A DNA stretch of 20,335 nt from a virus: positions 1 to 20,335 of IMG/VR virus record IMGVR_UViG_3300031227_000552; one strand, 5' to 3'. Positions 4,659 through 19,717 of the stretch are shown here, one piece after another. The first letter of the stretch is position 1; each line of letters begins with the position of its first letter. The notes beneath the pieces were generated by a model. The model was not told the origin of the DNA. It did not search any database and saw only the letters and a program-made list of their open reading frames with translations. The position numbers and the translations under genes are program-made.

Positions 4659-5885
4659 TTACTCCCTCCCGATTAATGATTGATTGCTTAATATTCCAAA
4701 CAGCATAACTCCTAAATACTGATAAACACCTAGTTGAAAAATGAAAGAACCACACGATACAAGGTGTAATAATAAAAACAAACAGATAAAAGGTATCAAC
4801 GGATTTGCGCCGTATTCGCGCAGTCTTAGCGCCTTTTTAAAACACTCGTAATTCGCCATAAGATATAAAACTAATCCTATCATACCTAATGAATATAATA
4901 TCTGTAACGGATCGCTATGCGCCTGCTTAAATGGATGCCTGACACCAGAAATAGGCTTAACGTACTTATGCTTTTCTGGTGATAAATATACATAACTGCC
5001 AAGACCAATCCCAGTAAATGCCTGTGATTTAATAGATCCATCGGCTATCGGAGATGTCCTTATATCTTCAATGATATTTTTATATACTGTACTTCGACCA
5101 CTCATATCTGAAATCTTGAAATCTTTGACCACCATTACCATACAAACTGCCGATATAACCATTATGTATGGTAAAAGTCTCGGCCGGCTTAACATTAAAT
5201 AGACAGTAGCCGCAACACAAGTCGCGCCAATAGCCATCTTTGAATCGAGAATGAATAGAAAAAGCGCCATGAATACAGCCGGAATATATTTTTTTAATGA
5301 TAGCGCTGAAATAACGCCAAGACCAATGTAGGGAGATACTAATGTCGGTTGACCTAAATTACCGATCATGTGAGGTGTTTTAACTGTACCAATTATCGCA
5401 ACGTCTTTGACAACATAGAACTGATCCGCGCCGATCCATTGGGTAAATACATAGAACGTCATCGCCAATGCTGTATAATAAAGCACCGAAATAACCTGTT
5501 TTTGAAGTTTTTTTGTTAAATCAAGGCTGGATACGCCTAAATACATGAGGAAATAAATAAAGATTTGGCCTGCTGGTTTCCATAGCCAGAAAGATGACGA
5601 GTCAATTCCATTTACAATAAGAGGAATATTCGTCGCCCTATTAATACTGATCGGGATAAATACCAATAATGCCAAGAGCCATTTATTAGACACTCTTAAA
5701 TTAATACCCCGGTAAAGAGCAGCTAGGCCTATCATCAGCGCAATTAATAGCGATAACGATAGCTTCGCCACTCTTGTATCAGGTGTTATAACTACGGCAT
5801 CAGGGAACAATCTTATGATGATCTCATAAAACGGAACTAAGGCTATTCCTATCAGCAAGATGATCTTTCGATAATCGATTGCCAT
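4659..5885 (-). CDS. O-antigen ligase/polymerase-like membrane protein (Wzy_C type)
   Basis: 408 residues with roughly ten to twelve hydrophobic segments across the whole length. Three features match the Wzy_C/WaaL family: GRSTVY near residues 263-268, GIGLGSY near 291-298 in the large periplasmic loop, and HSDPLQILYSLGMIG near 322-337, the conserved His loop leading into a membrane helix. Members transfer or polymerise undecaprenyl-linked polysaccharide in the inner membrane, as in LPS O-antigen ligation. In a phage it could alter the host surface to block superinfection, a role known for phage-encoded O-antigen polymerases such as that of phage D3. It sits among virion genes, 11 bases from a secreted protein gene, and its 3' end carries the SD of the next gene. 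Substrate unknown; ligase versus polymerase cannot be told from sequence alone. Confidence 0.8.
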   Translation of the reverse strand: MAIDYRKIILLIGIALVPFYEIIIRLFPDAVVITPDTRVAKLSLSLLIALMIGLAALYRGINLRVSNKWLLALLVFIPISINRATNIPLIVNGIDSSSFWLWKPAGQIFIYFLMYLGVSSLDLTKKLQKQVISVLYYTALAMTFYVFTQWIGADQFYVVKDVAIIGTVKTPHMIGNLGQPTLVSPYIGLGVISALSLKKYIPAVFMALFLFILDSKMAIGATCVAATVYLMLSRPRLLPYIMVISAVCMVMVVKDFKISDMSGRSTVYKNIIEDIRTSPIADGSIKSQAFTGIGLGSYVYLSPEKHKYVKPISGVRHPFKQAHSDPLQILYSLGMIGLVLYLMANYECFKKALRLREYGANPLIPFICLFLLLHLVSCGSFIFQLGVYQYLGVMLFGILSNQSLIGRE

Positions 5886-7420: not shown

Positions 7421-7919
7421 AACGGTTAATTTTAGTCTTGATCCATTACAACAAACTCGCCTTTGACATAGCCATAGGTGTTGTTTGCAATAGCGTCAGT
7501 TGAGATGTCGATTGCAATAACTTGGAAACCCCAAGCTACACAACCTGTATCACCTTCATCAACGCTATCATTTTTCTCAAGATCAATGATCGTACCCACG
7601 TTAGTCTGAGCTACAACTGCGGCTTCTTCAACCTTAACCCAGAACTTCAAACCCTGAAGCGGTGGAATAACTAAAAGACTTTCTCCACTCGAACATCCAT
7701 GGGCTGCTACCCCTAAAAACTCCTTCGCAAACGCCAATATAGCGTTTGTTGCGTAACCGTTTCCGTCATCGTGGATGGCTTGCCCCTTAACAATAGTTAC
7801 TGCCGCGGCCGTAAACTTTCTCATTCCGGACTCTTCAATACTATTGTCTAATGTGAATCCATCTTTGTAGTAATATTTAGACATCTTAACTACCTCCTTA
7901 AAACAATAACGGTTAATTT
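7421..7919 (-). repeat. 12-base direct repeat bounding the duplicated gene
   Basis: The 12-mer aacggttaattt occurs at 7421-7432 and 7908-7919, 487 bases apart, each time just past the 3' end of, or beside, a decoration gene. Together with the homologous genes this marks an ancient tandem duplication unit that included the intergenic sequence. Confidence 0.6.
7432..7884 (-). CDS. Decoration/head-stabilising-like protein, copy 2
   Basis: 150 residues, same length as the gene just upstream and clearly homologous along its whole length (shared YYKDGF, LRKFT/MRKFT, VIPP.QG.KFWVKVE, CVAWG, IAIDISTD and the identical ending FVVMDQD). It is rich in beta-forming residues and Ala/Gly, with no signal peptide, fitting a capsid decoration or cement protein encoded next to the shell protein. 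SD AAGGAGG precedes ATG. Both copies look intact, so they may form a mixed decoration layer or have diverged in timing. Confidence 0.7.
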   Translation of the reverse strand: MSKYYYKDGFTLDNSIEESGMRKFTAAAVTIVKGQAIHDDGNGYATNAILAFAKEFLGVAAHGCSSGESLLVIPPLQGLKFWVKVEEAAVVAQTNVGTIIDLEKNDSVDEGDTGCVAWGFQVIAIDISTDAIANNTYGYVKGEFVVMDQD

Positions 7920-7925
7920 ACTTTT

Positions 7926-8378
7926 TTAGTCCTGATCCATAACTACGAACTGAACTTTGGCGTAACCATAAGTATTGCTCGCAATAGAATCGGTTGAAAT
8001 GTCAATAGCAATAATCTGACATCCCCAAGCTACACAAGTATTATCAGAAATATCAATACTGTCGTTAGCATGGAGATCACAAATTTCACCGACATTACTC
8101 TGATCTAAAACTTCATCATTTTCAACTTTGACCCAAAACTTATAGCCCTGGCGTGGAGGAATAACTAAAATATCCTCTCCGCTTGTGCTACTATGAGCCG
8201 CTATTCCTAAAAAAGTATTAGCAAATGCTGTCGTCGCGTTAGTTGCTAAACCAGCCGTATCGTCATGAAGGGCTTGTCCTTTAGTAATCGTAACTGCGGC
8301 GGAAGTAAATTTGCGTAACCCTGATCCTAATACATTGGTGTCAGGTGTAAACCCATCTTTATAGTAACTCTTATTCAT
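7926..8378 (-). CDS. Decoration/head-stabilising-like protein, copy 1
   Basis: 150 residues, paralogue of the next gene downstream. It starts MNKSYYKDGFTPD after an AGGAGG SD (CAGGAGGTATTAGAGATG). The central VIPPRQGYKFWVKVE and the terminal TYGYAKVQFVVMDQD are nearly shared with its copy, while the middle loops differ. It lies between the zinc ribbon/scaffold genes and the capsid gene, the usual site for a head-decoration gene. Role inferred from position and size. Confidence 0.7.
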   Translation of the reverse strand: MNKSYYKDGFTPDTNVLGSGLRKFTSAAVTITKGQALHDDTAGLATNATTAFANTFLGIAAHSSTSGEDILVIPPRQGYKFWVKVENDEVLDQSNVGEICDLHANDSIDISDNTCVAWGCQIIAIDISTDSIASNTYGYAKVQFVVMDQD

Positions 8379-14346: not shown

Positions 14347-14535
14347 TCAGGCCTCCTTTAGTTTGTGCATATCTTCTAACTCAAAATCCCAAGGAATAAA
14401 TATCTTTAAACCGTCGTGTATTGCAAAGAATCTTTTACATCTTTCACAATATAATTTTCTAGCTCCAGGAATAGTATCATAACCCTTAACCACCTTTAAT
14501 TTATGAAAAAAGATTTTACACCATAGGTTCGCCAT
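14347..14535 (-). CDS. Small Cys knuckle protein (DUF1660-like)
   Basis: 62 residues with MANLWCKIFFHKL at the start and CERC near residues 30-33, a C...H...CxxC arrangement as in small phage zinc-binding proteins of the DUF1660 kind. Its ATG overlaps the terminase stop (TAATG) and its SD AAAGGAG is within the last terminase codons, so it is translationally coupled to terL. Confidence 0.55.
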   Translation of the reverse strand: MANLWCKIFFHKLKVVKGYDTIPGARKLYCERCKRFFAIHDGLKIFIPWDFELEDMHKLKEA

Positions 14536-17500
14536 TAATAGCTCCTTTTCTTTCCTGATTCAAACTCCTGTTTAACTATGAACCGAGGATTTGACATACA
14601 GAGATACCTAACCAGATCGCAGTTAGCCACTAGAATATCATTGGCATAATATCTGTGACGACCCTCGACCGTTATATTATAAACTGTTTCTTTTGAGTTT
14701 GGTAGCACTTTGACTACGGCCACCGCATTTTCTGGAACAGGTTTTTGTTGCAGAGTATTTGTTGATAGAAAACGTGGAATTACAGACAACACAGATTCGC
14801 TGTTCATTGTCAACGCCGGATTGCCTACGGTATCTTGATTTGCAATTATTGGAACAAAATTTAAAATCCCAACACACTTTAGTTTGAAATTCATTCCCAC
14901 ACATTTCACATATTTTAATACGAGGTGTACGATTCTTCCAAATCTTTTTAAATTGCCTAGATGCAACTTCTCTCCCATCCTTGCTTTTATGCCATGCTGC
15001 CATTTTCTTACTATGTCCTGTATGCTTTTGGATTCGTTCACTAAGCTCTCTTCGACGTTCTTTTGAGTATGGATGTTTCGCCCAATGTTCCTTAACCGTA
15101 AGAAGTTCAAGATTAGAAATGTCATTATTAAATTTATCACCGTCGATATGATGCAGGTGCATCCCTTTCGGAATTTTCCCATTAACTTTTTCCCAAACTT
15201 CTCTGTGAAAAAATCTTGATCCAAGTTGCAAATATCCACTTCTTCCAACTTTCCAATCGTATGTCCTTTTTCTTGCCATACACATATTGTATCACCATAT
15301 CGCAATAGGTCAAGAGAAACTTTTAATCCATTTTGTAAATAAATTTGATGGTTAGGCGTACCGCATAATTCTTTTCCATTAGAAAACGTAACCGCTACTG
15401 TTGGTCTATTAAACCCAGTTGCCATTGATACTAATACTTTCCTCAATCCAATATCTGTTTCCACCAAGTCACCAACCTTAATATCTTCGATTGGTATTTG
15501 GCCACATGAAGTTCTTACCATTGTTCCAGCCACAAAGCAGAAATCCTTGAACGCTTCCTTCGGCTTAACCTTGTCCTTAACATCACCATCAGCAGAGGTT
15601 ATATCCTTACGGCTATATCTTGACATGTGCCTTATGTGATTCGTACAATTATCACAGATAAAAAACTTTGGCTGAACAATCAACTCGGCATCCTTTTCCT
15701 CCCAATGTAAGAACTGTCTGACCTGTAAATGCCCTGCCTCAACTGAATCAATGCCATCTTTATATATCAATCCTCTCTTTTTAAGCTCTTCAACCGGCGT
15801 TGTCTTGGCCTGGCCGCCCTGTCTTTGAGCCAACTGCATTGTCTTATTCCCGAAATTAGGGTCAATTATGCGCTTAATGAACTTATTCTTGACTCCTTGC
15901 ATAAGAATTGACTCTTTCATTTTGATATACTTGGCATATTCATCATAAGTCTTGTCATCATAAAGCATATCATTGAAGTTTCGTTCCGGGTATTCCTCAA
16001 TAGCACACACAGAACCGGTCGGATGAACTGCATACCAACCAATCGCCCAAGGTTTCCTATCATGCGGATCAAGTACATTGTATATTTGACACCCAGATAG
16101 CTCTACATCCTCTCTTCCGATAACATGGACATCCTTATTGAACGATGGATATATCTTGCCTTGTAGGTTGATTGGGATGCCATAGAAGCGGCTTTTAATC
16201 TCCTGTCTGGTCATCAGCTTGGCTTCTTCCATCATTCGCTCATAATTGATGTATGGATTGTTCTCAGTCCAAAGGAAATAGAACTTAACACCGTTCTTTT
16301 CAGCGATCACAGGCAGCACTTCATCAACTAAAGCAGCATAACGGCTCTTGATAACCGTATGCCCTTCAAATATCTCTTCAATTAACTCCGTAACACCGCG
16401 CAAAGAAGTCATTGAAAGCAACAACTCGCCATCCCTGTCAAGCAATCTCATCTTAATCTCTTGCCATATATCCAGGTCAGGCTCTTCATCACACCACGCA
16501 AGGTCAATAGCATCACCCTGAAACGCCTCACGCTTTTGGTCATAAGACTTAAAGATCGCTAAGGATCTGTTTTTAAGTAATAGCTTACGGTTCGTATAGC
16601 CATTGATCTCATCATAACTGCCGTACTTGATTTTATGTAAAGGCATGAGCCTTGCCATCTTAGCCTGTTGAATGTTCACAGACTCAGCAAAGGTTAATGC
16701 ACAACACCAGAACCTTGCGGCCGGCATTGAGATCATCTTCTTATCTACATAACAACTGACGGCTTCAGTCTTTCCGGAATTATGATGAATCGCGCCACAC
16801 GCATAATAATTATGATATTTGGGAACAGTAAAATCCCACTTGACATCTTCCCTGATATACTCTATACTGATTATAGCCGAATAAGCGGTATTACGAAAGG
16901 AGTTGTCACGTGGCATGGCACAACAAGAACGAATATCCTGTAAATCAGATTCGGGAATGGATTGAGGTTGAAGGAAAAACTCAAGCATGGATTGGTAAGC
17001 AACTTGGATTTGACGCAAAGCTAATTTATAAAGTTTGTAAGAAGCATGGAATAAAATGCCAACGAACTGGGCCTCGATCCGGCTCTGGCCATCCTGATTG
17101 GAAGGGTGGCAGATTGATCGACGGCGATGGCTATGTTTTGGTGTATTGTCCTGAACATCCTTATGCAAGAAAGCCTCGCGGGTGCTATGTGCTTGAGCAT
17201 CGCTTGGTGATGGAGTATCATTTAAAAAGATTTCTTTCTCGCTCAGAGGTGGTGCATCACAAGAATGGAAACAAACAGGACAACCAGATCGAAAATCTAC
17301 GTTTGTTTTCGAATAATTCTGAACATCTGAAACATGAGTTGTCTGGTAAGATTCCGGCTTGGACTTCGGAAGGAAGATTAAAAATCCTTCATGCAATAAA
17401 GAAACTGGCTGATAACCGTAGAGGCCTAACACTTGATGAGTACCAGAACAAACGAAACTCTCGCCAGAACATAGCGTAACTTTAAACATGCTCCCAGCAT

Positions 17501-17786
17501 CTTTCGTGAAGGGCTTGCTTGCTTCTGAAATAACAAGCCTCTTGCCATCCCATGCAAGTACATGGAAGTTTTCTTTTATCTTCCCAACGGCAATAGATTG
17601 CTTTAGGACAGGATCATATATCTCTGTTTCTGCCCCCAAACATCTGTTGCCCCCGAATATCACCTTGATTTTGGCTGGATCATTAGCCCATAGCTGCTGC
17701 TGAGGTAGGTATTGGTGAGCCATCAGAGGATTCTTTTTGGCTCTTGCGGCGTACTCTTGCGCGTACTTAATATCAGGTATATCCAT
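14535..17786 (-). CDS. terL: Terminase large subunit carrying two inteins
   Basis: 1083 residues: about 489 of terminase plus two inteins (49-336 and 750-1055). The mature enzyme is the DNA-packaging motor: an ATPase that docks on the portal and a nuclease that cuts concatemers. Walker A becomes GGNRSGKT after the first intein is removed (residues 45-48 joined to 337-340). Walker B is DLAWCDEE (D433, E434), the coupling motif is SMTS (458-461), and nuclease aspartates are likely D573 (LDPHD), D642 (IDPNFG) and D1057 (CDLVRY), the last just after the second intein. SD AAGGA lies four bases before ATG. Neither the ATPase loop nor the final nuclease motif is complete without splicing. Confidence 0.9.
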   Translation of the reverse strand: MDIPDIKYAQEYAARAKKNPLMAHQYLPQQQLWANDPAKIKVIFGGNRCLGAETEIYDPVLKQSIAVGKIKENFHVLAWDGKRLVISEASKPFTKDAGSMFKVTLCSGESFVCSGTHQVLGLYGYQPVSLLHEGFLIFLPKSKPESYQTTHVSDVQNYSKTNVDFRSGCPVCFHSCDAPPLSEKEIFLNDTPSPSDAQAHSTREAFLHKDVQDNTPKHSHRRRSICHPSNQDGQSRIEAQFVGILFHASYKLYKLALRQIQVAYQSMLEFFLQPQSIPESDLQDIRSCCAMPRDNSFRNTAYSAIISIEYIREDVKWDFTVPKYHNYYACGAIHHNSGKTEAVSCYVDKKMISMPAARFWCCALTFAESVNIQQAKMARLMPLHKIKYGSYDEINGYTNRKLLLKNRSLAIFKSYDQKREAFQGDAIDLAWCDEEPDLDIWQEIKMRLLDRDGELLLSMTSLRGVTELIEEIFEGHTVIKSRYAALVDEVLPVIAEKNGVKFYFLWTENNPYINYERMMEEAKLMTRQEIKSRFYGIPINLQGKIYPSFNKDVHVIGREDVELSGCQIYNVLDPHDRKPWAIGWYAVHPTGSVCAIEEYPERNFNDMLYDDKTYDEYAKYIKMKESILMQGVKNKFIKRIIDPNFGNKTMQLAQRQGGQAKTTPVEELKKRGLIYKDGIDSVEAGHLQVRQFLHWEEKDAELIVQPKFFICDNCTNHIRHMSRYSRKDITSADGDVKDKVKPKEAFKDFCFVAGTMVRTSCGQIPIEDIKVGDLVETDIGLRKVLVSMATGFNRPTVAVTFSNGKELCGTPNHQIYLQNGLKVSLDLLRYGDTICVWQEKGHTIGKLEEVDICNLDQDFFTEKFGKKLMGKFRKGCTCIISTVINLIMTFLILNFLRLRNIGRNIHTQKNVEESLVNESKSIQDIVRKWQHGIKARMGEKLHLGNLKRFGRIVHLVLKYVKCVGMNFKLKCVGILNFVPIIANQDTVGNPALTMNSESVLSVIPRFLSTNTLQQKPVPENAVAVVKVLPNSKETVYNITVEGRHRYYANDILVANCDLVRYLCMSNPRFIVKQEFESGKKRSY
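14622..15539 (-). other. Intein 2 in terL (between F749 and C1056)
   Basis: Residues 750-1055, 306 aa, inserted one residue before nuclease Asp1057. Block A is CFVAGTMVRTSCG with Cys1; block B is GTPNHQIYL; the C-terminal block is ETVYNITVEGRHRYYAND followed by ILVAN, and the +1 residue is Cys. These are standard class 1 splicing blocks, except for Ala in place of the penultimate His. The linker between blocks B and F has no endonuclease in the terminase frame; instead the -1 frame encodes an HNH protein. The C-terminal block starts just where that gene ends. Confidence 0.85.
14677..15285 (-). CDS. HNH endonuclease in the -1 frame of intein 2
   Basis: 202 residues, same strand as terL but in the -1 frame, contained within the intein. 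Residues 17-62 match HNH_3 homing nucleases (GYLQLGSRFFHREVWEKV, then PKGMHLHHIDGDKFNNDISN), with H45, H46, N54 and N58 as active-site candidates. The C-terminal half has two CX2CX14CX3C zinc ribbons (C126, C129, C144, C148; C165, C168, C183, C187), probably for DNA recognition. A TGA lies three codons before the first ATG, so entry is by internal initiation (ATG 15285 or 15279; SD weak) or by a -1 shift near an A5 run. TTGACC-N16-TACAAT at 15313-15286 is a possible promoter that would give a near-leaderless message. It would cut terL alleles lacking the intein. Confidence 0.8.
   Translation of the reverse strand: MCMARKRTYDWKVGRSGYLQLGSRFFHREVWEKVNGKIPKGMHLHHIDGDKFNNDISNLELLTVKEHWAKHPYSKERRRELSERIQKHTGHSKKMAAWHKSKDGREVASRQFKKIWKNRTPRIKICEMCGNEFQTKVCWDFKFCSNNCKSRYRRQSGVDNEQRICVVCNSTFSINKYSATKTCSRKCGGRSQSATKLKRNSL
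16840..16868 (+). promoter_or_regulatory. Promoter for the antisense HNH gene
   Basis: TTGACA (16840-16845), 17-base spacer, TATACT (16863-16868; one mismatch to TATAAT). It points toward the plus-strand HNH gene, whose GTG is about 35 bases past the predicted start. It sits inside codons for the residues just before and in block F of intein 1. Confidence 0.65.
16910..17479 (+). CDS. Antisense HNH homing endonuclease inside intein 1
   Basis: 189 residues, the only convincing plus-strand gene in the window. It starts at GTG 16910 with AAAGGAG (16897-16903) seven bases upstream. N-terminal residues about 10-50 look like a helix-turn-helix (WIGKQLGFDAKLIYKVCKKH); residues about 70-140 match HNH nucleases of intron/intein type (YVLEHRLVMEYHL, EVVHHKNGNKQDN, IENLRLFSNN), with H116, H117, N119, N125 and N129. 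It is nested wholly in intein 1 but opposite to it, and its last 17 or so codons overlap block B. It should nick or cut terL without the intein and so spread it; specificity is unknown. Confidence 0.85.
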   Translation: MAWHNKNEYPVNQIREWIEVEGKTQAWIGKQLGFDAKLIYKVCKKHGIKCQRTGPRSGSGHPDWKGGRLIDGDGYVLVYCPEHPYARKPRGCYVLEHRLVMEYHLKRFLSRSEVVHHKNGNKQDNQIENLRLFSNNSEHLKHELSGKIPAWTSEGRLKILHAIKKLADNRRGLTLDEYQNKRNSRQNIA

Positions 17787-18913: not shown

Positions 18914-19096
18914 CTAAATCTTAATTAGCGGTAGTTTTTTAACTTCTGAATAATCTGCTAGATCCTTTGGACATTCGTGCCACTTGTTACGATCGGTGTT
19001 CCACTTCTTCCTTCGCCTTGCAAGAGTAGCCGCAGACTTCCGATGATGTTCGGCTTTGCGTTTCCATTTTTCATCTAGCTTGGCCTGGGTCAGCAT
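18914..19096 (-). CDS. Small basic helical protein
   Basis: 60 residues, very basic and helical (KRKAEHHRKSAATLARRRKK), with a single Cys (HECPKDLADYSE) and Trp residues. Starts seven bases inside the end of the second GroES-like gene; SD weak (AAGGGATG, ten bases away). Might bind nucleic acid; no family recognised. Confidence 0.5.
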   Translation of the reverse strand: MLTQAKLDEKWKRKAEHHRKSAATLARRRKKWNTDRNKWHECPKDLADYSEVKKLPLIKI

Positions 19097-19410
19097 AAAA
19101 CCACATCCCTTATTACAACTAAGACCTCAACGAACGGTATTGAATAAAAACCACTACCATCCATCCTGAAATCAGGTTTGCGACTCGGCCTTTGAATATA
19201 AACTATATCCCCTTCTTTACATGGCGGCGGAACTTTCTTCTGTTTTGGATATGCCGGTGGTGTATAAATCCCTCCTACTGAAACGGCTTCGCACTTAATT
19301 GACCTATCTGAACTGTCATCACCTATATATAATCCTGATGCGGTCGTTCGTTCTTCCCTTAAAACCCTTACAACCATTTTGCCATCGATTGATTTGATTT
19401 TACGTTTCAT
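19090..19410 (-). CDS. Second, divergent GroES-like protein
   Basis: 106 residues with the GroES layout but extra loops: N-terminal strand KMVVRVLREERTTASGLYI (mobile-loop region with a hydrophobic GLYI), then EGDIVYIQRPSRKPDF and a C-terminal FVEVLVVIRDVV in place of LVLRxxDILAxV. The 20-residue insert with PPAYPKQKKVPPPC is unusual. SD GGAG lies before ATG. It directly follows the canonical GroES. It may form mixed rings or bind GroEL with another cargo; this is inference. Confidence 0.6.
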   Translation of the reverse strand: MKRKIKSIDGKMVVRVLREERTTASGLYIGDDSSDRSIKCEAVSVGGIYTPPAYPKQKKVPPPCKEGDIVYIQRPSRKPDFRMDGSGFYSIPFVEVLVVIRDVVLC

Positions 19411-19456: not shown

Positions 19457-19717
19457 TTATCCCACCTTTGCCAAAATATAATCTGGCCTTAATACGATTA
19501 ACTTTTCACCGTCAACTTCAACGGTCTTGCCTTCATGCCTTTCAAATAAAATCCGATCGCCCTCTTTTAAAGGAGCTTTGCTTTCCTTTCCTACATACGC
19601 CACAATCCCATAGAACTCTCCGTAATACGATTGAGCTTCTTCCGGGATAAATATATTCCCGGTCTTTTCTTCATGTTCCATCTTAACTAAGATATTATCG
19701 TATGGTGTTTCAAGCAT
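19457..19717 (-). CDS. groES: GroES (10-kDa co-chaperonin)
   Basis: 86 residues. N-terminal DNILVKMEHEEKTGNIFIPE contains the GroEL-binding mobile loop (hydrophobic tripeptide IFI), then GIVAYVGKES, LKEGDRILFERHEGK and the typical end EKLIVLRPDYILAKVG. Phage GroES (T4 gp31, for example) replaces the host lid so that GroEL can fold the phage capsid protein. Length is slightly shorter than host GroES (about 97). No GroEL is encoded here. SD AGGGG is seven bases before ATG. Confidence 0.85.
   Translation of the reverse strand: MLETPYDNILVKMEHEEKTGNIFIPEEAQSYYGEFYGIVAYVGKESKAPLKEGDRILFERHEGKTVEVDGEKLIVLRPDYILAKVG

Follow-up and report, generated by a model that had tools for sequence, protein, structure and literature searches.

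A candidate homing endonuclease gene lying out of frame within the coding DNA of a phage TerL intein

The usual description of an intein is a splicing domain joined to an endonuclease in the same reading frame. The gp41-1 and NrdJ-1 split inteins, and ‘fractured genes’ in which a homing endonuclease gene separates the two intein halves, were reportedly described by Dassa et al. in 2009. The homing enzyme I-HmuI is encoded in an intron. An in-frame HNH_3 intein is known from the dCTP deaminase of cyanophage CL131 (PMC6293099), and the TerL inteins of mycobacteriophages have all been placed in the ATPase domain (PMC5050341). The idea of an out-of-frame HNH has also been published: the passages of PMC11855218 considered here describe methylase inserts of ShiLan and Pacc40, without splicing domains; for the ShiLan insert the authors proposed leaderless starts, and these passages come with no promoter analysis. 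On overlapping frames in actinophages, the same paper refers to a preprint of 2025 whose title includes ‘Non-Canonical Architecture’. In our literature search, no report was found of an HNH placed in the -1 frame of a complete intein, and the cited 2025 preprint may cover actinophage cases.

Here we analysed a 20,335-base record of an uncultured virus, which as a whole is called the window, and compared the second intein of its terL gene (intein 2) with these systems. As far as the cited passages describe it, the ShiLan insert has a zinc-finger HNH in another frame (the ‘third frame’) while staying open in the host frame, and has a disjunct distribution; intein 2 resembles it in all these respects, but unlike that insert, which has neither splicing blocks nor a splicing fold, it carries Hint halves, Cys1, a final Asn and a +1 residue that is Cys or Ser in the family. 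With the CL131 intein it has in common Hint N and HNH_3 in one element, self-excising in CL131, whereas the HNH domain is part of the intein protein there and never in the present family. The gp41-1 intein is the best match of intein 2 and split relatives of intein 2 have an HNH gene between their halves, whereas in the window the N and C halves form one ORF and the overlapping out-of-frame nuclease is of the HNH_3 family. We consider it quite probable that intein 2 is a mobile intein with a separate homing endonuclease gene nested out of frame in its coding DNA.

Intein 2 and the HNH gene of the window

The terL ORF (14535-17786, 1083 aa; like all window features below, on the minus strand unless stated otherwise) is interrupted by two inteins, and nuclease motif III is the extein following intein 2. 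Intein 2 spans 306 codons of the TerL frame (14622-15539) in the context KDF-C ... AN-CDLVRY, where a hyphen marks each junction, with Cys1 encoded by 15539-15537, the final Asn by 14624-14622 and the +1 Cys by 14621-14619. An earlier note on this DNA had placed an intein with intact splicing blocks and a +1 Cys here; its coordinates proved exact, and both the Pfam search of the TerL ORF, which found Intein_splicing and Hint_2, and the individual residues (Cys1, T61-x-x-H64, N306 and the +1 Cys) agree with it. In an AlphaFold2 model of the TerL frame the ends form a Hint fold, namely an N-terminal part of residues 1-89 (15273-15539, pLDDT 87-98), which holds Cys1 and T61xxH64, and a C-terminal part of residues 267-306 (14622-14741, pLDDT 90-94 for residues 281-306), while the linker between them (14742-15272) is stop-free filler without confident structure (pLDDT about 40-64). 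The blocks are recognisable in 61 aligned relatives, T61 and H64 are invariant among the intein relatives, and the nucleophile at position 1 and the final Asn are conserved.

The penultimate residue of intein 2 is Ala (ILVAN) instead of the usual His, thus splicing could be slow. Relatives end in HN in many cases and in SN, KN, GN or AN in others, and a penultimate His is not strictly required in known inteins. The gp41-1 intein is the best solved match of intein 2 by profile (PDB, 1.6e-20) as well as by fold. Both intein halves lie in one ORF in the window, which is not the arrangement of a split intein or fractured gene. A group I intron or other RNA intron was considered for the locus and rejected, there being no Rfam match in the window at gathering thresholds. 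Taken from its residues and modelled fold, intein 2 is predicted to be a cis-splicing intein.

In the -1 frame relative to TerL lies an HNH endonuclease ORF (14677-15285) of 202 aa from ATG 15285, or 200 aa from ATG 15279, with matches to Pfam HNH_3 (3e-17) and PHROG 15471 (7e-40). Its catalytic motif covers HNH residues 24-67 (15085-15216), and H43, H45, H46, N53, N54 and N58 are invariant or nearly so in relatives, so that the HNH motif is present with intact catalytic residues. Two zinc ribbons follow, the first with C126, C129, C144 and C148 (14842-14910) and the second with C165, C168, C183 and C187 (14725-14793); all four zinc-binding Cys of both ribbons are invariant columns among 31 aligned relatives. 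The AlphaFold2 model of the -1 frame reaches a mean pLDDT of 88 over 202 residues. Hence the description of the linker as the shadow of a 202-residue HNH protein with two zinc ribbons is borne out by Pfam, the invariant Cys and pLDDT alike. The top solved match of both the HNH profile and the model is I-HmuI (PDB 1u3e), a weak one (E 0.003 and 0.04), and the two zinc ribbons set the HNH of intein 2 apart from it. A TGA just upstream of the HNH start had likewise been noted; it lies at 15294-15292, two codons before ATG 15285, and closes the HNH frame. At the other end, the first 65 nt of the C-terminal Hint part double as code for the HNH C-terminus. The endonuclease is thus not fused in the intein frame, as it is in a canonical bifunctional intein.

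Several other genes of the window were recorded in passing. Two tandem GroES-like genes (19457-19717 and 19090-19410; Cpn10, 2.5e-13 and 2.8e-7) seem to have similar counterparts at 350-936 of the related record L113. An O-antigen ligase-like membrane protein (4659-5885; Wzy_C, 1.8e-8) lies in the structural gene block and is perhaps a surface-modifying cargo gene. Tandem duplicate genes of 150 aa (7432-7884 and 7926-8378), 67% identical, adjoin the capsid gene; neither has a Pfam match, and they are perhaps decoration proteins.

Recurrence and selection on the two frames

Relatives were collected in two ways. An HNH-first scan covered IMG/VR (80 loci), GTDB contigs and named phages, with loci classed by models of the intein N and C blocks. 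Both blocks lay in one ORF in 61 loci, and in 61/61 of these the HNH was in -1 to both blocks and its stop fell inside the intein C block, the HNH/Hint overlap having a median of 43 nt; in about 19 further loci the halves were on different ORFs in mixed frames (split). An intein-first scan used the N block only, without recourse to the HNH, and was restricted to a narrower alignment as the broader one (A6) was too diverse. It returned the HNH in -1 in 79/80 loci, including shortened remnants in L225, L231 and L249, and the one other locus (L229) is a 129-aa mini-intein without HNH. No in-frame HNH fusion was found in the 61 loci of the first scan or the 79 of the second. Together the scans give about 121 distinct loci, not all phylogenetically independent, with the HNH in -1.

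The -1 HNH within a phage intein is therefore a family-wide trait with one fixed frame, an extent that the earlier note missed. Its claim that the frame overlap keeps the nuclease apart from the splicing protein holds throughout, with -1 in every in-ORF case and no in-frame fusion. A sequencing indel as origin of the frame difference, which it had named as a danger, is excluded by the same frame recurring in about 121 loci. Named carriers of the layout are Acinetobacter phage Highwayman, Tetrasphaera phage TJE1 and Rhodobacteraceae phage LS06-2018-MD07. The inserts of relatives occupy several different TerL motifs; among nine ORFs tested from other sites, Pfam found terminase domains in seven and intein domains only in the other two.

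In split relatives (L008, L050, L083, L092 and others) the N-half, the HNH and the C-half are three ORFs. L092 is Lactobacillus phage CL2, where a TerL split intein with the HNH gene between its halves, as also seen in L008, L050 and L083, occupies 1670-2690; the CL2 feature table stops TerL at 1954 and leaves the C-terminal half near 2586 unannotated.

To obtain expected numbers of stops, HNH codons were shuffled among synonyms. Not a single stop was observed in the TerL frame against 117 expected in the HNH-first overlap set (54 loci), which is partly defined by openness of that frame, and the intein-first set, which is not so defined, gave the same result (0 against 117 in 64 loci); the summed log10 P is about -74 to -77. 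No depletion was seen in split relatives (78 observed, 73 expected) or in free-standing ones (53 and 47). In the alternative frame, observed and expected numbers both come to about 20 stops per locus. This explains the fixed register: with the HNH in -1, the TerL reading meets only ~2-4 stops in each copy, so few that silent changes can remove them, and no other register could be opened in this way.

The comparison of substitutions by codon position, which had been proposed as a check, showed that the HNH frame is under purifying selection. Position 3 of HNH codons takes 52-54% of substitutions (54% in pairs 20-35% diverged), and such selection at HNH codon positions is seen in overlap pairs as in free-standing ones. 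The pairs 20-35% diverged number only four; their HNH frames are identical to 0.70, compared with 0.47 for the TerL frame and 0.46 for the unread one, and 382 pairs 35-50% diverged agree (0.46, 0.26 and 0.24). Since identity in the TerL frame is no higher than in the unread frame, the only constraint on the linker appears to be that it stays free of stops; its C-end, shared by the HNH and the Hint block, is the exception. This is an asymmetric long same-strand overlap, in which one frame is selected for a fold and the other only for the absence of stops.

These data also bear on whether the HNH is a decaying relic, once in frame, displaced by compensating indels and no longer made. Homing endonuclease genes commonly decay after fixation, and the three shortened remnants would fit such a course; but the catalytic and zinc residues are intact, purifying selection acts on overlapping copies as on free-standing ones, and the HNH has its own start and stop in an identical frame in about 121 loci, and we regard the relic as hardly credible. 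A search for relatives with the HNH broken and TerL kept, which the earlier note had set as a refutation, found the intact HNH to be the rule; the few remnants and the single HNH-less locus among 80 intein-first loci are what is expected of endonuclease decay.

Start signals within the intein codons

Three routes of HNH expression had been suggested in the earlier note, namely internal initiation, a near-leaderless promoter at 15313-15286 and frameshifting near an A5 run; the comparative data favour an own promoter with internal or leaderless initiation, and give no support to a conserved frameshift. The HNH starts tend to fall within about 30 nt of where the intein N block ends. The putative promoter of the window matches consensus at 10/12 positions, with a -35 hexamer TTGACC (15308-15313) inside the intein codons for L-D-L, at a recurrent position, and an extended -10 (TGA-TACAAT, 15286-15291) 6 nt before ATG 15279. 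In consensus scans of what are mostly uncultured phages with unknown host, a sigma-70 match of at least 10/12 within intein codons 60-97 occurred in about a fifth of loci (25/121 distinct loci), compared with 6.0 after synonymous recoding, and none of 200 recoding simulations was as high. A compositional artefact was accordingly rejected as source of the signal, the recoding control giving 6 where 25 were observed.

Moreover, most of these loci have the end of the -10 at intein codon 83.7-84.7, two loci (L237 and L246) have a perfect TTGACA-16-TATAAT, and Ile is written as ATA at the promoter position in 61% of cases vs 22% in the TerL extein (P = 3e-16). The -10 stands exactly 6 nt before the HNH start in 17 loci vs 2.9% background (P = 2e-13). 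Such spacing is expected of leaderless genes, and in the window it points to ATG 15279 as the start. The case for the suggested promoter has thus been strengthened by a pattern that recurs at one intein position; a comparison with the split set comprised 13 loci, too small a number.

In two tests, HNH starts showed stronger Shine–Dalgarno pairing than control starts did (P = 2e-6 and P = 4e-11). In the window, GGTGAT (15291-15296) fits the 3' part of the Shine–Dalgarno consensus 5 nt before ATG 15285, with a duplex energy of -8.8. The idea that leaderless-spaced HNH starts are those without Shine–Dalgarno was rejected, as no difference in energy separated the groups. Judged from these motifs, either promoter-driven leaderless starts or Shine–Dalgarno starts may be in use.

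Under programmed -1 frameshifting, some ribosomes on TerL would shift to the HNH frame, giving a fusion of TerL-N, intein-N and HNH. The register is -1 in all cases, as such slippage requires, and an in-phase slippery heptamer lies near the entry in 18/61 loci vs 9% of background windows; in the window the sole one, T TTT TTC (15213-15207), would still give a product with the HNH motif. However, the stop density already explains the register, 43/61 loci lack an in-phase heptamer near the entry and the positions of the others vary, and Shine–Dalgarno or promoter starts recur at a fixed place instead. The A5 run singled out earlier is in the wrong phase for a -1 slippery site. We therefore think frameshifting very unlikely to be the source of the HNH: it is not a general route, though T TTT TTC might permit it in the window.

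Probable mobility, evolution and meaning of the layout

TerL relatives with empty sites were found via the extein between the two inteins. L113, 85% identical in TerL, has an empty intein 2 site (KDF-SDLTRYL) and carries, at the Walker A site, an intein unlike that of the window, and L114-L116, about 60% identical, read KDF-CD(L/I)(A/T)RYL; both sites are free of inteins in L114 and L115, and the L116 sequence includes the second site only. These empty sites show that removal of intein 2 leaves an intact host protein, and, being exact, that the presence of intein 2 at its conserved position, nuclease motif III, is sporadic among close relatives, as is typical of homing endonuclease carriers.

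The Walker A site of terL is taken by different elements in L113 and in the window: L113 (2804-5326) has an intein there that looks LAGLIDADG-like by eye, and the window an intein with an antisense HNH. Upstream of its terminase genes L113 also encodes a GIY-YIG domain protein (1702-2262, 4.9e-13), whose frame begins with a terminase-small-subunit-like start (MKKKLTPKQKKF).

Terminase-adjacent HNH proteins can serve packaging, and an accessory role of this kind, as proposed for HK97, would make the overlap a mere tie to terL. Free-standing HNH relatives do adjoin terL in PAE1, SN1, EauM-23 and BP10, and PMC10448857 allows both readings for terminase-adjacent HNHs. Against this, the HNH sits inside inteins at several different TerL motifs and is absent from close relatives with intact terL, it combines HNH_3 with zinc ribbons and matches, weakly, the homing enzyme I-HmuI, and the HNH tree mixes overlap, split and free forms. 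We consider a packaging accessory unlikely; family and distribution point to a homing role.

Under the reading of a mobile intein with a nested nuclease gene, the TerL frame would supply Hint halves joined by a stop-free, otherwise meaningless linker, and excision would restore TerL motif III. The -1 frame would yield a free HNH/zinc-ribbon nuclease from its own start, independent of the TerL precursor. In the window and many relatives a sigma-70 promoter would be written into the intein motif L-D-x-L-R-Y-x-D directly upstream, and in other relatives a Shine–Dalgarno sequence within the overlap would start the HNH. The nuclease presumably cuts intein-less terL, whose repair would copy the whole element.

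Two changes suffice to separate overlap from split layouts in the intein-block tree. On the HNH tree, by contrast, overlap, split and free forms are mixed, and the overlap label takes 12 changes, of which at least 5 are forced; HNHs thus appear swapped between inteins, which suggests that an intein keeps its layout even as its nuclease is exchanged. Monophyly of the overlap class was rejected on the 5 or more forced changes in the HNH tree; a single split clade was not rejected by the AU test (p 0.19). The layout is one step from a split intein plus a free-standing gene, to which it may have led.

Intein 1 of the same terL, at the Walker A site, has its HNH_3 gene antisense (16910-17479, plus strand). 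In 80/80 relatives from IMG/VR (L117-L196), which are mutually close and include near-copies, the antisense TerL/intein ORF is open across the HNH in one register, with 0 stops against 333 expected over 52 distinct genes. Together with the -1 HNH of intein 2, this makes out-of-frame homing genes look like a general strategy of TerL inteins. A wider proposal, which we mildly favour, is that TerL inteins of this family carry an autonomous homing gene always in -1, with intein codons serving as sigma-70 promoter and leaderless or Shine–Dalgarno start and the nuclease as filler, that the antisense type is a sister family, and that loss of the open frame would lead to a split intein.

An intein lineage would thus keep splicing and nuclease in the same DNA as two products, so that annotation pipelines overlook the nuclease and record just an unusually long terminase. 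The -1 layout would let homing be regulated independently of TerL expression, and may offer a testable path to natural split inteins of the gp41-1 kind.
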